A stretch of DNA of 64,000 bases from Bradyrhizobium sp. CB1015 (lineage in GTDB: Bacteria > Pseudomonadota > Alphaproteobacteria > Rhizobiales > Xanthobacteraceae), in assembly GCF_025200925.1 (NCBI RefSeq), contig NZ_CP104174.1, forward strand, positions 1,674,001 through 1,738,000, in the 5' to 3' direction. Positions 4,586-64,000 of the stretch are shown one piece after another (within the stretch, counting starts at the first letter, position 1; every line of letters begins with the position of its first letter). Under the pieces are notes generated by a model. That model did not search any database, was not told the origin of the DNA, and saw only the letters and a list, made by a program, of their open reading frames with translations. A program made the position numbers and the translations under genes.

Positions 4586-4799
4586 CAGACGCATGTGGCG
4601 ACAAACCCGAGCCGCCTCACCGCCGGAAAACGTGGCTGCACATCTGCGCTCAAGGCTTCCGGGGGCCGTCGCCCATGATGGGCGAGAGAGCCTCGTCGAC
4701 ATGTCGAATTGGCATCACGGCGTTGGCGACGCCGTCGGATTCGCAATTGAAACGCGCGCCAGAAGACCTTCCTTGCCTCCCGTAAGCCCGTACTCCTCT

Positions 4800-5860
4800 G
4801 CAGGCTTGCCGTCGAGTTTGGCCGCTTCGGCGACGCCCTTCGAGCGTCTTGAAAGTGTCATCCGAAAGACGCAGGGCGCCAACACCAAGCCGTCGTCGCC
4901 ATCTGGCTCCGCGTTCCCACCCTTCCATCCACGCAAAGCCTAAGTCGCTACTACGTTTGACGGCATTGAATGCTTGAATGAGCGCGCCAGCTTGGTTGAT
5001 CTCTTTTTTTGACTTATCCGCAAAGAACACATTCCTTTTGGTCGCGATGATCAGTTTGTGGACGGCATAGCGCTCCGGGGCCGGTACAAGGACCGGCACG
5101 CCGGCGTCGTGCAAGACAAGAGGGCGGATGGGCTCATGGATCAGTTAGTCTAGGAGCCGCAACACCTGCGCTCCTACGGACGGCCCCAATGACATCTGCG
5201 TCAGTCTGGAGGAGTAGTCCTCGTCGCCACGGTTTGGTGTAAGGAATTCGACCTTGAGCCGGTGGCATTGGCAAAACCGCTGAACAGCTTGGTTTCATCG
5301 GGGGAGAATGAGGGCGCAGATGTCGGATCCACCTTTTTCAGGATCTCTTCGATGTCGGGCATGCTTTCATCGATCCAGATCGAGATGCCGTAAAATTTCG
5401 CGATGTCCATATCCTCGGTCGTCACGAGCTCGTCGGGCAGCTTGAGGCCGACTACGCCGCTGTATGTCCGATAGGCCATCGAACCGACGAGCGTGGCGCG
5501 AATCCGGAAAAGTCCCGCGCGTGCGAGTTCGTTGACGACGACACCTTCCATGTGGGGAGGAGCAGGGTAGCCGGCCCGCCTCAACTTCGCTGCCAGCTCG
5601 CGTCGCGCGCTATAGCCAATCTTGGTGCGCTGGAAAGCTTCCGCGCGTTGGCAATCTCGGGATCATCGGTCGGACAGACATATTGAGGGTCGTCTTCGTC
5701 GGTCCCTCGCCACCGAGGGCGCGTAGGTCTTCTAGCAATAGTATTCGCGGCGGCTCGCTTCTGTTTTGAGAAAGGTCTGGTTTTCCGGAGCGGCTCGCGA
5801 GCCGCAATAACATCTCTCGAGCGATTCGGCGGCTTGATCGTGCAAATCCGCCTCAACGGA
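4800..5860 (-). pseudogene. Degenerate nucleotidyltransferase (GSU2403-like family)
   Basis: Fragments in three frames of the minus strand assemble into one protein: DDPQYVCPTDDPEIANARK, then RRAGYPAPPHMEGVVVNELARAGLFRIRATLVGSMAYRTYSGVVG, a TTEDMDIAKFYGISI segment and KVDPTSAPSFSPDETKLFSGF, then LIHEPIRPLVLHDAGVPVLVPAPERYAVHKLIIATKR. This order and wording fit the GSU2403 nucleotidyltransferase-fold family. Frame changes near 5635 and 5260 and an in-frame TAA near 5147 (LLD-stop-LIHEP) show it is inactive. It is a relic of a non-symbiotic gene stranded in the island. Confidence 0.65.
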
Positions 5861-12193: not shown

Positions 12194-12295
12194 TGTTTCA
12201 GTCGCGACAAATAGGAGCCGGCAGCCAGATGGCGCGAAAAAACCTACATGAGTCTGTCTATGAAAATGCACGAGGGCATTGGCATGCCGGTTGCT
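12194..12295 (+). promoter_or_regulatory. Second NifA-type sigma-54 promoter: UAS plus -24/-12
   Basis: A perfect upstream activator sequence TGT-TTCAGTCGCG-ACA is at 12194-12209, and an RpoN element TGGCATGCCGGTTGCT is at 12280-12295 (GG-N10-GC, TTGCT box intact). The 72-base spacing is slightly short but within the range used by NifA. Transcription would begin near 12306 and read rightward into a region with no recognised gene. Confidence 0.65.
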
Positions 12296-14152: not shown

Positions 14153-15451
14153 ATGACAAAGCGTTTTCGCAACTTGGCCCTATTGTTCATACTCACCTCC
14201 ATCGTTGTCTTCCCCGCCGCGAAAGCGCAAGACCGCCGGACTATCACCGAGCCTGTTGCACCTCATACGGTGTGCGAGCGCCTCGTGCCGTCTGGTAAGC
14301 AAGATACGACCACGTTGCAAAATGCCATCGACCAATGTCCTTCCGGGGCCGCCGTGTATTTAGGGCGTGGCGAGTTCCGGTCGGGCCCACTCGAGATGAA
14401 ATCGGGTGTGACGTTATGGGTCGGACGCGGGGCGACGCTGATCGCCATCCCCGAACCTGCTGCTTACGACAAGGGCCTCGGACAATGTGGTCGTATTGCG
14501 CAAAAGGGCGGCGGTTGCCGGCCGTTCATCAGCTTTTCCAGAACCAGCGGCGGTGGCATCTACGGAGAAGGCATCATCGATGGTCAGGGCGGCGCAATAA
14601 TTGGCGGCGGCGCGGAAACCTGGTGGCAGCTAGCGCGCCGCGCTCAAGCCCAGGGCGGCAACCAGAACGCCCCGCGCTTGATCCAAATCGATCATGCGCA
14701 GGACATCACTTTCTCCGGTGTCACCTTGCGCAACGCTCCCAACTTTCATGTCGCGATGAACCGGGTCCAAGGTGCCACGTTTTGGGGCCTCATAATCGAT
14801 TCACCGGCGGATGCGCGCAACACTGATGGCATCGATCTTGGCGCGAGTCAGGATGTGACCATTACCCGCAGCTTGATCCGTACGGGTGACGACAACGTCG
14901 CAATCAAGGCCGGCGACAATGGCTCAAGCAGCCATATCTCGATCATTGATAATTATTTCGGCTGGGGGCATGGCATGTCGATCGGCAGTGAGGTGAATTC
15001 CGGGGCCAGAGACATATTGGTGCGTAATCTGACGCTGGATGGTACGACGTCCGGCCTGCGCATCAAGAGCGATGTTAGCCGAGGCGGTCTGGTCGAGAGC
15101 GTGACTTATGAGTACGTGTGCCTGAGGGGCAACCGGTGGCCGCTAGCGTTTGATACGAAATATGATCCGCGCGCACAAGGCACGAGAATTCCGGTCTATC
15201 GGCGAATCGTTCTCCGTCATGTGCATGGCGACACCGGTGTGTTGCTGATGCGCGGCGTAGACGAGGAGCATGCACTTGACCTGACACTCGAAGATGTCCG
15301 ATTTTCCGATTCCGCCACTTGGCAAGTTGAACATGCGAACGTCACCGCAAATCACTCGGACGTATCACCGCCGCTGCCAGGACAAGCTGCAAAACCGCTG
15401 CTGCGCGGCTCGGAGGTATGTTCCAGGGCGTTCCGCAACAGCAATCGGTAA
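14153..15451 (+). CDS. Secreted polygalacturonase (glycoside hydrolase family 28)
   Basis: The enzyme hydrolyses alpha-1,4-galacturonan, the backbone of pectin, by inversion. The 432-residue product begins with a signal peptide (hydrophobic LALLFILTSIVVFPAAKAQ, cleavage after AKA or AQ). GH28 catalytic signatures follow in order: NTDGID (223-228), GDDNVAIK (245-252, catalytic Asp pair), GHGMSIGSE (about 272-280) and RIKS (about 302). The start ATG has a GAGGAGG site 6 bases upstream. A pectin methylesterase follows on the same strand 250 bases later; demethylating pectin makes it a substrate for this enzyme, so the pair probably loosens plant wall or infection-thread matrix during root infection. 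The gene is intact, with no recognised operator upstream. Confidence 0.93.
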   Translation: MTKRFRNLALLFILTSIVVFPAAKAQDRRTITEPVAPHTVCERLVPSGKQDTTTLQNAIDQCPSGAAVYLGRGEFRSGPLEMKSGVTLWVGRGATLIAIPEPAAYDKGLGQCGRIAQKGGGCRPFISFSRTSGGGIYGEGIIDGQGGAIIGGGAETWWQLARRAQAQGGNQNAPRLIQIDHAQDITFSGVTLRNAPNFHVAMNRVQGATFWGLIIDSPADARNTDGIDLGASQDVTITRSLIRTGDDNVAIKAGDNGSSSHISIIDNYFGWGHGMSIGSEVNSGARDILVRNLTLDGTTSGLRIKSDVSRGGLVESVTYEYVCLRGNRWPLAFDTKYDPRAQGTRIPVYRRIVLRHVHGDTGVLLMRGVDEEHALDLTLEDVRFSDSATWQVEHANVTANHSDVSPPLPGQAAKPLLRGSEVCSRAFRNSNR

Positions 15452-60355: not shown

Positions 60356-61219
60356 GTGCACAATGTCGTCTGCATCAAACAGGTTCCGGACTCGGCGCAA
60401 ATCCGCGTTCACCCCGTGACCAATACAATCATGCGCCAGGGAGTGCCGACAATCATCAACCCATATGACCTCTTCGCGCTCGAGGCCGCGCTGGAGCTGC
60501 GCGATCGGTTCGGCGGCGAAATTACCGTGCTTACCATGGGACCGCCATCGGCAGAAGAGTCCCTGCGAAAGGCGCTGGCTTATGGTGCCGATCGCGCCGT
60601 CCTACTCACCGATCGCTGCTTTGCGGGCTCCGACACACTGGCCACAACGTATGCACTTGCAACCGCCATCCGGAAAATCGGTAAGGACTATCGCCCGACG
60701 AATGTCATTTTCACGGGAAAGCAGACCATCGACGGCGATACTGCGCAGGTTGGGCCCGGCATCGCAAAGCGAGTGGGCGTAGTGCAGCTGACTTACGTTG
60801 CTAAGATCAGATCCTTGGACCTCGCCGCTCAAACGATTGAAGTGGAACGACGCTGCGAAGGTGGTGTGCAGGTGTTGCAAACCAAATTGCCGTGCCTCAT
60901 CACCATGCTTGAGGCGACCAATCAGATTCGGCGCGGCGCGATGGCGGATGCCTTGCGTGCCGCGCGTGCCCAAATCGTGAAATGGAGCGCGCAAGAAGCC
61001 GGTGTCGAAGACACCTCCAACTGCGGTCTCAAGGGCTCGCCGACGGTCGTTAAGCGTGTGTTCGCTCCCTCTGCGCGGGCCGAGAAGGCGGCGCTGGTTG
61101 AGGCCGCTGAGCAACCGGCGCAGGCGTTGATAGACGCAATGTTCTCGCTTCAACCGAAGCTCGAAACCGATCTTGCGGCACTTGCTCGTGGCGCTCGATC
61201 CGGAGAGTCCAGGCCATGA
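60356..61219 (+). CDS. fixA: FixA, electron-transfer flavoprotein beta-type subunit
   Basis: Part of the FixABCX complex, which bifurcates electrons from NADH to supply low-potential electrons to nitrogenase. The 287-residue product has the ETF-beta start VVCIKQVPDSAQIRVHP, the NPYDLFALEAALELRDRFGGEITVLTMGP core, and GKQTIDGDTAQVGPGIAKRVG. The GTG start at 60356 has GGAG 8 bases upstream and follows a perfect sigma-54 promoter. fixBCX are not adjacent, as is known for Bradyrhizobium, where fixA is separate. Confidence 0.96.
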   Translation: MHNVVCIKQVPDSAQIRVHPVTNTIMRQGVPTIINPYDLFALEAALELRDRFGGEITVLTMGPPSAEESLRKALAYGADRAVLLTDRCFAGSDTLATTYALATAIRKIGKDYRPTNVIFTGKQTIDGDTAQVGPGIAKRVGVVQLTYVAKIRSLDLAAQTIEVERRCEGGVQVLQTKLPCLITMLEATNQIRRGAMADALRAARAQIVKWSAQEAGVEDTSNCGLKGSPTVVKRVFAPSARAEKAALVEAAEQPAQALIDAMFSLQPKLETDLAALARGARSGESRP

Positions 61220-61664
61220 TAGTGGATACGCTCCAGAAATGTATCAACGCCGCACCCGTGTCGAAGAGCGCGCAACATGTAGCGACCCATCTCGGCCAGC
61301 TACCAATAGGGTCTGCCCATGGCATCCGTCGATCTCGCGAGCAGCGGGCCCGGATGTTCCCTAGACCACGTTACGCTACGACGGAGTCGCGGGGGATTGT
61401 CGGGGCACAGGCAAAGGGGCCTGCGTATGTTCCAGGTCACCGTTCGGTCGTATTCGACGACGTGGAAGGCCATTTCTTCTCTTGTAACGGTCACGGCGAA
61501 GACGCAATAGTCAGCGACCCGGGTCACCATACTAGCGCTGCCGTCTGCACGCACAAAGCGCTGTCGCTGGCTTCGGGGCGCAAAGTCAACCCATGCGTCG
61601 CCTTTGAAGCAGTCTCCGCGATTGAGCAGACCTGTACGCATGTGAGCGGCCGCTGGCTCTTCGC
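61220..61664. other. Region between fixA and the next NifA promoter
   Basis: A 167-residue frame (61216-61719) overlaps the fixA stop by ATGA but has no recognisable domain, and the opposite strand is also open. I do not call it. Confidence 0.35.
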
Positions 61665-61793
61665 TGTTTGCTTTCTGACAGCGGCGCGCAGGCTCTCAAG
61701 GTCGATACACTCGCAATGAGGAGGCGACACGACCGTTGTATCAACTGATTCAGATCTTACGGAGCGAATCCAAGAGTTGGCATAATGATTGCT
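61665..61793 (+). promoter_or_regulatory. Third NifA-type sigma-54 promoter: UAS plus -24/-12
   Basis: A perfect activator site TGT-TTGCTTTCTG-ACA (61665-61680) is followed 98 bases later by TGGCATAATGATTGCT (61778-61793), which deviates from the RpoN consensus at one position. Transcription should begin near 61805 and read toward the DUF3865-GFA gene at 62402. Confidence 0.8.
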
Positions 61794-62401
61794 GAGAGCG
61801 ACTAAGAACTTAGAGGTGGTAATCGCGAACGAAGAACGGGTGAGGGTCTCTTTGAGATGCTTTGTGCCGCCAGCAGCGGTATGTGACACCAGGGGCCAAA
61901 AACCTTAAGAGCATCATAGGTACAAATTGGAGTCTACAATGCTGTCCCAGGCTGACAGCGGTTCGGCGAAATGGCGGGAGCAGCACCCGCGAGGGCTTGA
62001 TCCATTCGCCCAAGATCGCGAAAGCTGCAAGCGTGCCGAGCGGCCAGGCACGCCACTCGCCCACGCGACATTAGCTACAAAACGGCGTGGGCGGCGCAGT
62101 ATCCATTATGAGTCTCCGCGCGAATGCTGGTCGGGGCGGGCACTGCGGCGTCGGACTGCTGGTGGAGAGGAATCCGACTGGATTCCCGCCGCTCCAATAA
62201 TGAACGCATTCCCTTCGATGCTTATGAGCTGGACTGAGCATGCCGCTGTCTGCCATCGCGAAGCAAACTACCAAAAGTTCGCCTGGAAGGTGAGCGCAAT
62301 CATTGGCCCTTCTAAGCCAATGAACCCAGGGCGGTTAATAGGTGGCCCGGACACGAAGCTGCTTCGTCAGGGACCGTTCGCTTCTCATCTGCAGGGATCA
62401 C
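61794..62401 (+). other. Leader between NifA promoter and the DUF3865-GFA gene
   Basis: An ORF beginning ATG 61939 with GGAG 6 bases upstream (MLSQADSGSAKWREQHPRG...) runs on to 62613, out of frame with the next gene. Its first 60-90 codons could be a genuine small gene or the start of a decayed one; I do not recognise it. Confidence 0.35.
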
Positions 62402-63625
62402 ATGACATCTCAAGCGTCTCGATTTGCAGCGGATCAGCCTCCGAAGATATGCTGCGAGTACCTGACCGAGCAAGCGCGAGCCTTGTTCGGCCCGCATCCG
62501 TTCGCCTCTCAGTTGTCCGAAGATCAGGTTGCCAGGGTGCTGCCCGAATATCTGGCGATGTCACAGGCGTTCCCGTACCTGCAGGCGGGGTCCCAAGGGG
62601 ACCTCATATTTGATGCAATGCATCACAATCGGGATATTGCGAGAGACATTGAGCTGACCAGCGTGGTCGCGAACTTTATCTGTTGGGACGAGACCGGAGG
62701 CCATGGCCGAATTCTCCAGGGGGGCAAGGCCGCGCTACCGGATATTCTGTTGACAGAAAGCTTTCACTCCAACCTGTTGAAGAAAGATGCCTCCCAACTA
62801 CTCGGCCGAGCAATACTGCCCAACTATAGCTCTAGGACGAAGCAGTATCTGCATTCTCTCTACGCCGGATTGTCATCGAAAGACTCCCTCGTTCGTTGCG
62901 CTTACATGGTAGCTTTTGAGCTACATGCTGCGGACATGATCCAATCGCTGTGGACCACCCTGGCCGAAACGTTTAAAGCGCAGCCGGACGATCTGGAGTA
63001 TTTTCGCAGCCATGTGGGCGGAGAAGATCCCGCGGAGAAGTACCACGGAGAAATGACAGGCCGGCTGATTGGTGAACTTGTGCAGCCTGACCGTAGTGAT
63101 CGTTTTTTGAATGAATTCCTCCAAGCCTATCGGGTCAGCGTCCAGTGGTGCCGCGATCTCATCGCAATTGCGGCACGCACCGGAGATGATCACTCGGAGA
63201 TCGAACATCATGGCAGTTGCCATTGTGGCTCTGTCAAGTTCTACGTCAGAGCGCCGCGGGAGCTCTCTGGAGTTCGTTGCAATTGCTCGATTTGTCAAAT
63301 GTCTGGGTTTCTCCACTTACTCGTAACTGGCGATAAGCTACGCATCGAGCGCGGTGAAGAATTCCTCACTACATATCAGTTCAACAAGAACATTGCTCGG
63401 CACACGTTTTGCCGGCTTTGTGGGGTAAAGCCATTCTATAGGCCGAGGTCGAACCCCTCCGGGTTCAGCGTAAATATTCGATGCCTGGACAGAAGGACGA
63501 TCGCGCGCGTAAGAATAACCGAGTTCGATGGCGAGCATTGGGAGCAAGCATTCGTCTCAATGCACAAGGACCCGGAGTCCTGCTTCGAAGATCAAAGGAG
63601 TGAGCTCGAATGGCGCGCGCAATGA
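62402..63625 (+). CDS. Fusion of a haem-oxygenase-like (DUF3865/CADD-like) domain with a GFA zinc domain
   Basis: ATG 62402 has GGGA 5 bases upstream and gives 407 residues. Residues about 10-265 are an all-helical haem-oxygenase-like domain of the DUF3865/CADD type: SVVANFICWDETGGHGRILQ, LTESFHSNLLKKD, then candidate metal ligands E173/H175 (FELHAAD) and H204, E208 or D209, H215 (HVGGEDPAEKYH). Relatives include di-iron oxygenases or oxidases acting on small molecules. Residues about 268-370 are a GFA/CENP-V-like zinc fold: C273-x-C275 (SCHCGS), CNCSICQ and FCRLCG. I do not know this fusion. It is the first secure gene behind a NifA/sigma-54 promoter and overlaps the next ORF by ATGA, so the two are probably co-expressed in nitrogen-fixing cells. 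The reaction is unknown. Confidence 0.75.
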   Translation: MTSQASRFAADQPPKICCEYLTEQARALFGPHPFASQLSEDQVARVLPEYLAMSQAFPYLQAGSQGDLIFDAMHHNRDIARDIELTSVVANFICWDETGGHGRILQGGKAALPDILLTESFHSNLLKKDASQLLGRAILPNYSSRTKQYLHSLYAGLSSKDSLVRCAYMVAFELHAADMIQSLWTTLAETFKAQPDDLEYFRSHVGGEDPAEKYHGEMTGRLIGELVQPDRSDRFLNEFLQAYRVSVQWCRDLIAIAARTGDDHSEIEHHGSCHCGSVKFYVRAPRELSGVRCNCSICQMSGFLHLLVTGDKLRIERGEEFLTTYQFNKNIARHTFCRLCGVKPFYRPRSNPSGFSVNIRCLDRRTIARVRITEFDGEHWEQAFVSMHKDPESCFEDQRSELEWRAQ

Positions 63626-64000
63626 GTGATAAATCCCGCCAGCTTTCAGAGGAAATGCTGACAAAGTACCGCATAGAGCTGTTAGTAAAGGGGACGGCCG
63701 TTATCGCCCCCCAGATATTGTTCACTCAAGCCGACTTGACCAAGATCGATCAGCTGCAGGCTGAGATTCCCGAGGAAGAAGTGCGGGAGGGAGATGCCGG
63801 CGACTTGCACAGCGTCTTTGTCAAGCGCGTAAGGGTAGATCCACCCGGCCGGGCGCCTAGCAACGTGAGTGGTACAGCTTCAGGGCAGATCATGGAGCTA
63901 CTTGAAAGTAAAGACCGCAGCTTCGCGCTAAGACAGATCTTCGGAGCATCCTCAGATTACGTGGTTCGCCGATGCCAAATGCATCGTATGCCGCCCGGGT
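63622..64000 (+). CDS. 5' part of a probable 2-oxoglutarate/Fe(II) oxygenase-like gene (runs off the window)
   Basis: ATG 63622 overlaps the preceding stop as ATGA (an ATG 12 bases earlier is in frame). 126 residues are visible: KYRIELLVKGTAVIAPQILF, a charged stretch EIPEEEVREGDAGD, and ELLESKDRSFALRQIFG followed by YVVRRCQMHRMPPG. The last segment resembles the strand just before the HxD iron ligands in prolyl-hydroxylase-type 2OG oxygenases (xRxQxxRMxPGxFxxxHxD), but the ligands lie beyond the window. Translational coupling to the DUF3865-GFA gene suggests a shared pathway. Confidence 0.5.
   Translation, partial: MSDKSRQLSEEMLTKYRIELLVKGTAVIAPQILFTQADLTKIDQLQAEIPEEEVREGDAGDLHSVFVKRVRVDPPGRAPSNVSGTASGQIMELLESKDRSFALRQIFGASSDYVVRRCQMHRMPPG

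Follow-up and report, generated by a model that had tools for sequence, protein, structure and literature searches.

The 64,000-nucleotide stretch of Bradyrhizobium sp. CB1015 analysed here (the window, positions 1,674,001 to 1,738,000 of a genome assembled as one contig of 8,412,734 bases) ends in a pair of overlapping plus-strand genes, preceded by a NifA/sigma-54-type promoter, that encode a fusion of a haem-oxygenase-like (HDO) domain to a GFA domain and a putative 2-oxoglutarate (2OG)/Fe(II) oxygenase. The features are:

61665..61680, + strand: NifA upstream-activator-type element (UAS), TGT-N10-ACA, TGTTTGCTTTCTGACA; motif scan
61778..61793, + strand: sigma-54 (-24/-12) promoter-type site, TGGCATAATGATTGCT; motif scan, scoring and comparison of 48 loci
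62402..63625, + strand: HDO-GFA fusion gene, 407 amino acids from ATG 62402; open reading frame (ORF), Pfam and fold comparison
62435..63190, + strand: haem-oxygenase-like domain, residues 12-263; alignment and fold comparison
63206..63505, + strand: GFA zinc-type domain, residues 269-368; Pfam, profile and fold comparison
63610..64000, + strand: 2OG/Fe(II) oxygenase gene, the first 130 of 225 codons lying in the window; Pfam and structure alignment

The fusion protein, which would have 427 residues if the alternative GTG start at 62342 were used, carries a GFA domain that is matched by Pfam at 7.5e-13 (49 bits, cut-off 24.3), and its cysteines (CHC, CNCSIC and CRLC) form the CxC, CxCxxC and CxxC motifs that are the zinc ligands of such domains. 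The profile match to 3FAC reaches 8.6e-25 and Gfa 1X6M is also matched in fold, but in contrast to these the GFA here is one domain of a two-domain protein, and its function is predicted. The N-terminal domain, described in the sequence-only reading as DUF3865/CADD-like, does have a CADD-like, haem-oxygenase-like helical fold by fold comparison, but no DUF3865 match is found in Pfam up to E 10, and the match to Haem_oxygenas_2 (PF14518; 5e-4, 20.4 bits) is under the cut-off of 28.9, this family being precomputed in 7 of 120 listed relatives. Identity to the HDO domain is 14-17% for CADD and the CADD-like 3B5P (Npun_F6505 of Nostoc), neither of which has a GFA within the aligned chain, and about 10-15% for BesC, PolF and HrmI. 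Six of the 23 invariant positions of the domain (E97, H122, E173, H204, E212 and H215) keep the order E-H-E-H-(D/E)-H, but D96, D129 and H175 are likewise invariant and the E97-H122 spacing is long. The closest locus in the searched collection, from which very near records may be missing, is in Bradyrhizobium sp. RP6, where the fusion matches at 100%, and one protein, P0081, unites the end of an HDO, GFA and 2OG in a single chain.

The 2OG gene is complete in the genome: in L002, the stretch extending past the window end, it encodes 225 amino acids (4611-5288) and ends 287 bp beyond the window. A 2OG-FeII_Oxy_3 match (1.2e-9, 39.4 bits, cut-off 27) and the alignment of its product (P0001) with 6n1f (residues 14-217, 192 bits), in which HLD, RHE and ERRS supply the HxD, distal His and Arg, bear out the earlier assignment, including the HxD...H motif expected past position 64000. 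The ATGA coupling proposed for the two genes is possible with ATG 63622, but ATG 63610 has AGGAG nine bases upstream, giving a 16-base overlap with the fusion gene. In the bes-type 2OG halogenase the Asp of HxD is replaced; since the HLD found here retains it, the enzyme looks like a hydroxylase rather than such a halogenase, and the pair is not filed as a bes pathway.

The UAS and sigma-54 site that together mark the NifA regulon are both present ahead of the pair, 97 bp apart. Two such combinations with a sigma-54 score of at least 14 occur in the window, against none in 100 first-order Markov shuffles, while a loose threshold gives 11, barely above shuffled sequence (mean 6.3, maximum 12, 40 shuffles), which leaves the strong class as the only one that carries information. 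The NifA promoter previously seen here is thus upheld in its elements, but these are distant, the -12 element lying 610 bp from the first ATG of the fusion gene (62402), and 23 of the 48 Bradyrhizobium loci compared (L003-L050, sites sought within 1300 bp) combine a sigma-54 site with a strict UAS. A further 13 have a sigma-54-like site without a strict UAS, of which those of at least L038 and L050 seem to belong to fixA, resembling the fixA site TGGTACGACACTTGC given for strain DOA9 (PMC13207237). In L032 and L037 about 100 bp separate the promoter site from the start of the match. No conserved ORF was seen in the 610-bp leader; ORF 61927-62613 was rejected as a gene, having no Pfam match and a similarity in USDA110 that is spread over three frames. 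Another ORF (61216-61719, 167 amino acids) follows fixA and has partial similarity (about 39%) in USDA110. The second strong combination in the window is at 12280 on the plus strand (also 10099), with UAS 70 and 194 bp upstream; about 1.9 kb beyond it, past small ORFs, lies ORF 14153-15451, secreted polygalacturonase-like by eye.

In the soybean inoculant and laboratory strain B. diazoefficiens USDA110 (genome G027, which has an ORF exactly at the published place of bll1778), orthologues of the fusion (86% identical, near 2200533-2201756) and the 2OG enzyme (89%, near 2201741-2202418) likewise follow fixA. Published gene lists give fixA as blr2038, and in nifA-mutant nodules blr2041, blr2042 and fixA are down by log2 4.2, 4.8 and 4.6, respectively (PMC4926349, Table 3). 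Lying side by side on the right strand shortly after fixA, and each assigned a functional class, blr2041-blr2042 are very probably this pair. nrgC, cyp112/114 and blr2131 also fall strongly in those nodules (PMC4926349) but are different genes with different products; nrgBC was rejected as the pair, nrgC being bll2063, a flavin monooxygenase/phenolhydroxylase homologue. The occurrence of oxygen-dependent enzymes in a microoxic cell, singled out in the sequence-only reading, is not in itself unusual, as the microoxic and nifA-dependent lists of USDA110 already include P450s, the flavin monooxygenase nrgC, the 'oxygenase' blr2131 and the 'dioxygenase' bll2125. In literature listings no paper was recognised as dealing with this pair beyond the table of PMC4926349, and papers mentioning 8YND, 8YNQ or 6N1F were not found.

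The distribution of the fusion suggests a link to symbiosis. The query matches in 195 of 265 Bradyrhizobium genomes, and the full-length fusion (E below 1e-160) is present, among the matches listed, in 73, all of which carry both nodA (139 of the 265) and fixA (165, at 1e-80). Among the same matches it is absent from all 126 nodA-negative genomes, as from all 26 with fixA but without nodA; the association with nodA has a Fisher p of 2e-26, related genomes and shared islands meaning that the counts are not independent. Beyond the top 78 genomes the matches listed are to the GFA domain only, except for unfused HDO and GFA in G073 and G079, and 398 genomes across the phylum give three matches, all in Bradyrhizobium. 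The fusion is a single ORF in 18 of 19 loci inspected and two ORFs in L050; stops flagged in many matches look terminal.

The neighbourhood is conserved. Upstream of the pair, and outside it, is:

60356..61219, + strand: fixA (ETF beta); ORF, Pfam 2.6e-41

The plus-strand order is nifA (named by sequence and place), fixA, promoter, fusion gene and 2OG gene. In all 48 loci the fusion is followed by the 2OG gene; 30 of them also contain fixA, and L036 and L047 have a NifH-like sequence upstream. Convergent to the pair in 35 of the 48 is a PGM1-type ATP-grasp ligase, with PreAtp-grasp and PGM1_C domains and matches to 3WVQ (4e-34) and 8YND (1.9e-64); of the other 13 loci, eight break off no more than 3.2 kb from the 2OG gene, and five (L009, L010, L016, L045 and L050) have no ligase in about 6 kb. 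An acyl-CoA-ligase-like gene, named by eye, stands ahead of the ligase in several loci and is apparently reduced in others. The ratio of nonsynonymous to synonymous substitution (dN/dS) ranges over 0.15-0.23 in the fusion (computed in 13 of 14 comparisons), 0.12-0.27 in the 2OG gene (14 comparisons), 0.13-0.34 in the ligase (13) and 0.08-0.21 in fixA (10).

Related genes also occur unfused. Bradyrhizobium G073 and G079 have, on one strand, genes for 2OG, HDO, ligase, desaturase, GFA, a second 2OG, a TylF-type methyltransferase and a 322-residue protein, G073 carrying this cluster in addition to the fusion and nodA. A desaturase elsewhere in G000 or USDA110 was discounted, as the matches are weak (best 3.8e-9, 22-26% identity). 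Legionella gresilensis and L. drozanskii share a conserved eight-gene cluster (Pfam run on the first, L051) of HDO, desaturase, ligase, weak-ATP-grasp protein, PF10014 2OG enzyme, short-chain dehydrogenase (SDR), Cys/Met-type pyridoxal phosphate (PLP) enzyme and GFA. An Oligoflexia metagenome-assembled genome has GFA, HDO, desaturase, ligase, a relative of the weak-ATP-grasp protein, methyltransferase and PLP enzyme, with no match there to the 2OG and SDR queries. The Cys/Met-type PLP enzyme is present in the Legionella, Oligoflexia and Kocuria loci, and its Legionella query has no match within L002 or L100 at 1e-6. Plasmids from Rhizobium WSM1689, Rhodococcus and Kocuria also combine ligase and GFA, and one query at 1e-6 found no HDO there; two queries of the plasmid records gave no convincing HDO relative, the sole match being short and to a kinase gene (E about 2). 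The WSM1689 and Rhodococcus plasmids also encode a '2OG-Fe dioxygenase', tested against PF10014 in WSM1689. On the R. leguminosarum WSM1689 plasmid (L112), 8063-14863 holds a PF10014 2OG enzyme, PGM1-type ligase, desaturase, GFA, two more 2OG oxygenases, a TylF methyltransferase and a weak-ATP-grasp protein, with no HDO by that one query. Paraburkholderia phymatum pBPHY02 (L116, 3013-6263) encodes, between nodB and nifA, a different protein of HDO type, whose PF14518 match is exactly at the cut-off, and has two ATP-grasp genes there. The HDO gene and one ATP-grasp gene are up in nifA-mutant bacteroids, opposite to the Bradyrhizobium pair (PMC8305402); without tblastn similarity to 12 query proteins at 1e-6, these genes are taken as a separate system.

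The bes and mbo (mangotoxin) clusters share with the present locus an oxidase of HDO fold close to an ATP-grasp ligase for amino acids or peptides, and at least 25 unique clusters combining HDO and ATP-grasp ligase have been reported (PMC13185094), so the general design is already known; that paper's main text makes no mention of Bradyrhizobium. The present pair differs from bes and mbo in that its HDO is fused to GFA, its ligase is PGM1-type and convergent instead of in the same operon, and its promoter is NifA/sigma-54-type. No MboB-like reductase was noticed beside the pair, though no search was aimed at one. The PGM1/ATP-grasp peptide ligases 3WVQ and 8YND share the ligase domains but not the HDO, GFA and 2OG neighbours.

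Oxidative enzymes linked to NifA and next to a peptide ligase suggest that the product is a small peptide or a modified amino acid. We consider it probable, at roughly 60%, that the pair is under NifA/sigma-54 control and forms the oxidative half of a symbiosis-restricted pathway to such a product. In bacteroids NifA and RpoN would transcribe both genes together, as the promoter and the published expression data suggest. The HDO domain, to judge by its fold and ligand pattern, may employ a two-metal centre and O2 for the desaturation, C-C cleavage or N-oxygenation of a substrate of the amino-acid type; the 2OG enzyme, which has the appropriate motif, would hydroxylate the same molecule; and the convergent ligase could link the resulting product with a further amino acid or peptide. 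The tethered GFA would be a zinc- or thiol-binding module for product or by-product. The small-molecule pathway first proposed for these two genes gains from the adjacent peptide ligase and from the unfused clusters elsewhere, but the pair is probably not the whole of it: the convergent ligase is conserved, and a scan of 19 loci gave no separate NifA site for it.

Four other explanations were weighed. On a minority reading, which we think unlikely, the HDO acts in the manner of BesC, releasing a one-carbon (C1) unit from an amino acid resembling lysine in the form of formaldehyde, and the fused GFA captures this with glutathione where it arises, shielding the bacteroid. This idea builds on BesC chemistry (PMC13108848) and on GFA work (PMC4682968), but the glutathione/formaldehyde action is disputed even for Paracoccus Gfa (PMC4682968), BesC is level in fold with CADD, PolF and HrmI, and the association of ligase and GFA on plasmids where no HDO was found is wider than that with HDO, which counts against a GFA serving HDO alone. 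It is most improbable that the HDO is instead a CADD-type self-sacrificing enzyme yielding p-aminobenzoate for folate in bacteroids. An oxygen or C1 stress module, in which the enzymes use up O2 or detoxify formaldehyde to shield nitrogenase without a dedicated product, would suit both the NifA-type promoter and the GFA domain; it is nevertheless improbable, given the adjoining peptide ligase and the absence of the full-length fusion, among the matches listed, from the fixA genomes that lack nodA, where protection would be equally wanted. That the pair is carried along with the symbiosis region and now has no function could be argued from the broken or frame-split copies described below, yet it has very little probability when dN/dS is about 0.2 in three genes, not far above fixA, and the gene order is kept in every locus.

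Several observations weigh against a symbiosis-restricted oxidative pathway. PqqC (16.4) and TenA-type proteins (16.0) also match the fold of the HDO domain, so the fold alone is no proof of HDO. No recognisable promoter site is present within 1300 bp in 12 of the 48 loci, and in 19 loci the 900 bp ahead of the ligase, or of the gene preceding it, contained neither a strict UAS nor a sigma-54 site above 12.5, so that a NifA site for the ligase was rejected. The 2OG gene is frame-split in L027 and the fusion in L050. Five nodA-positive genomes (G092, i.e. L104, and G192, G011, G087 and G006) have broken or GFA-only copies and, among the matches listed, 61 lack the fusion, which makes the pathway unnecessary for nodulation as such; conversely, G079 has the unfused HDO cluster but is not among the nodA genomes. 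The identity of blr2041-blr2042 with the pair is drawn from gene order, and the pathway itself is a prediction.

The pair points to a specific putative metabolite pathway in nodule bacteria; among the matches listed, the fusion is confined to nod-gene carriers, and it is apparently switched on with nitrogenase. A more speculative and doubtful extension, less likely than the formaldehyde reading that it includes, is that NifA directs the bacteroids of nodulating bradyrhizobia to make a peptide-like compound, so far undescribed, in which an amino acid has been remodelled by oxidation. The C1 unit released by the HDO, a toxic by-product, would be trapped by the tethered GFA, and the compound would be dedicated to symbiosis, its target being the plant cell or competing bacteria. 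If the proposed pathway is correct, HDO chemistry would enter the legume symbiosis, and the HDO-GFA fusion would have its first function.
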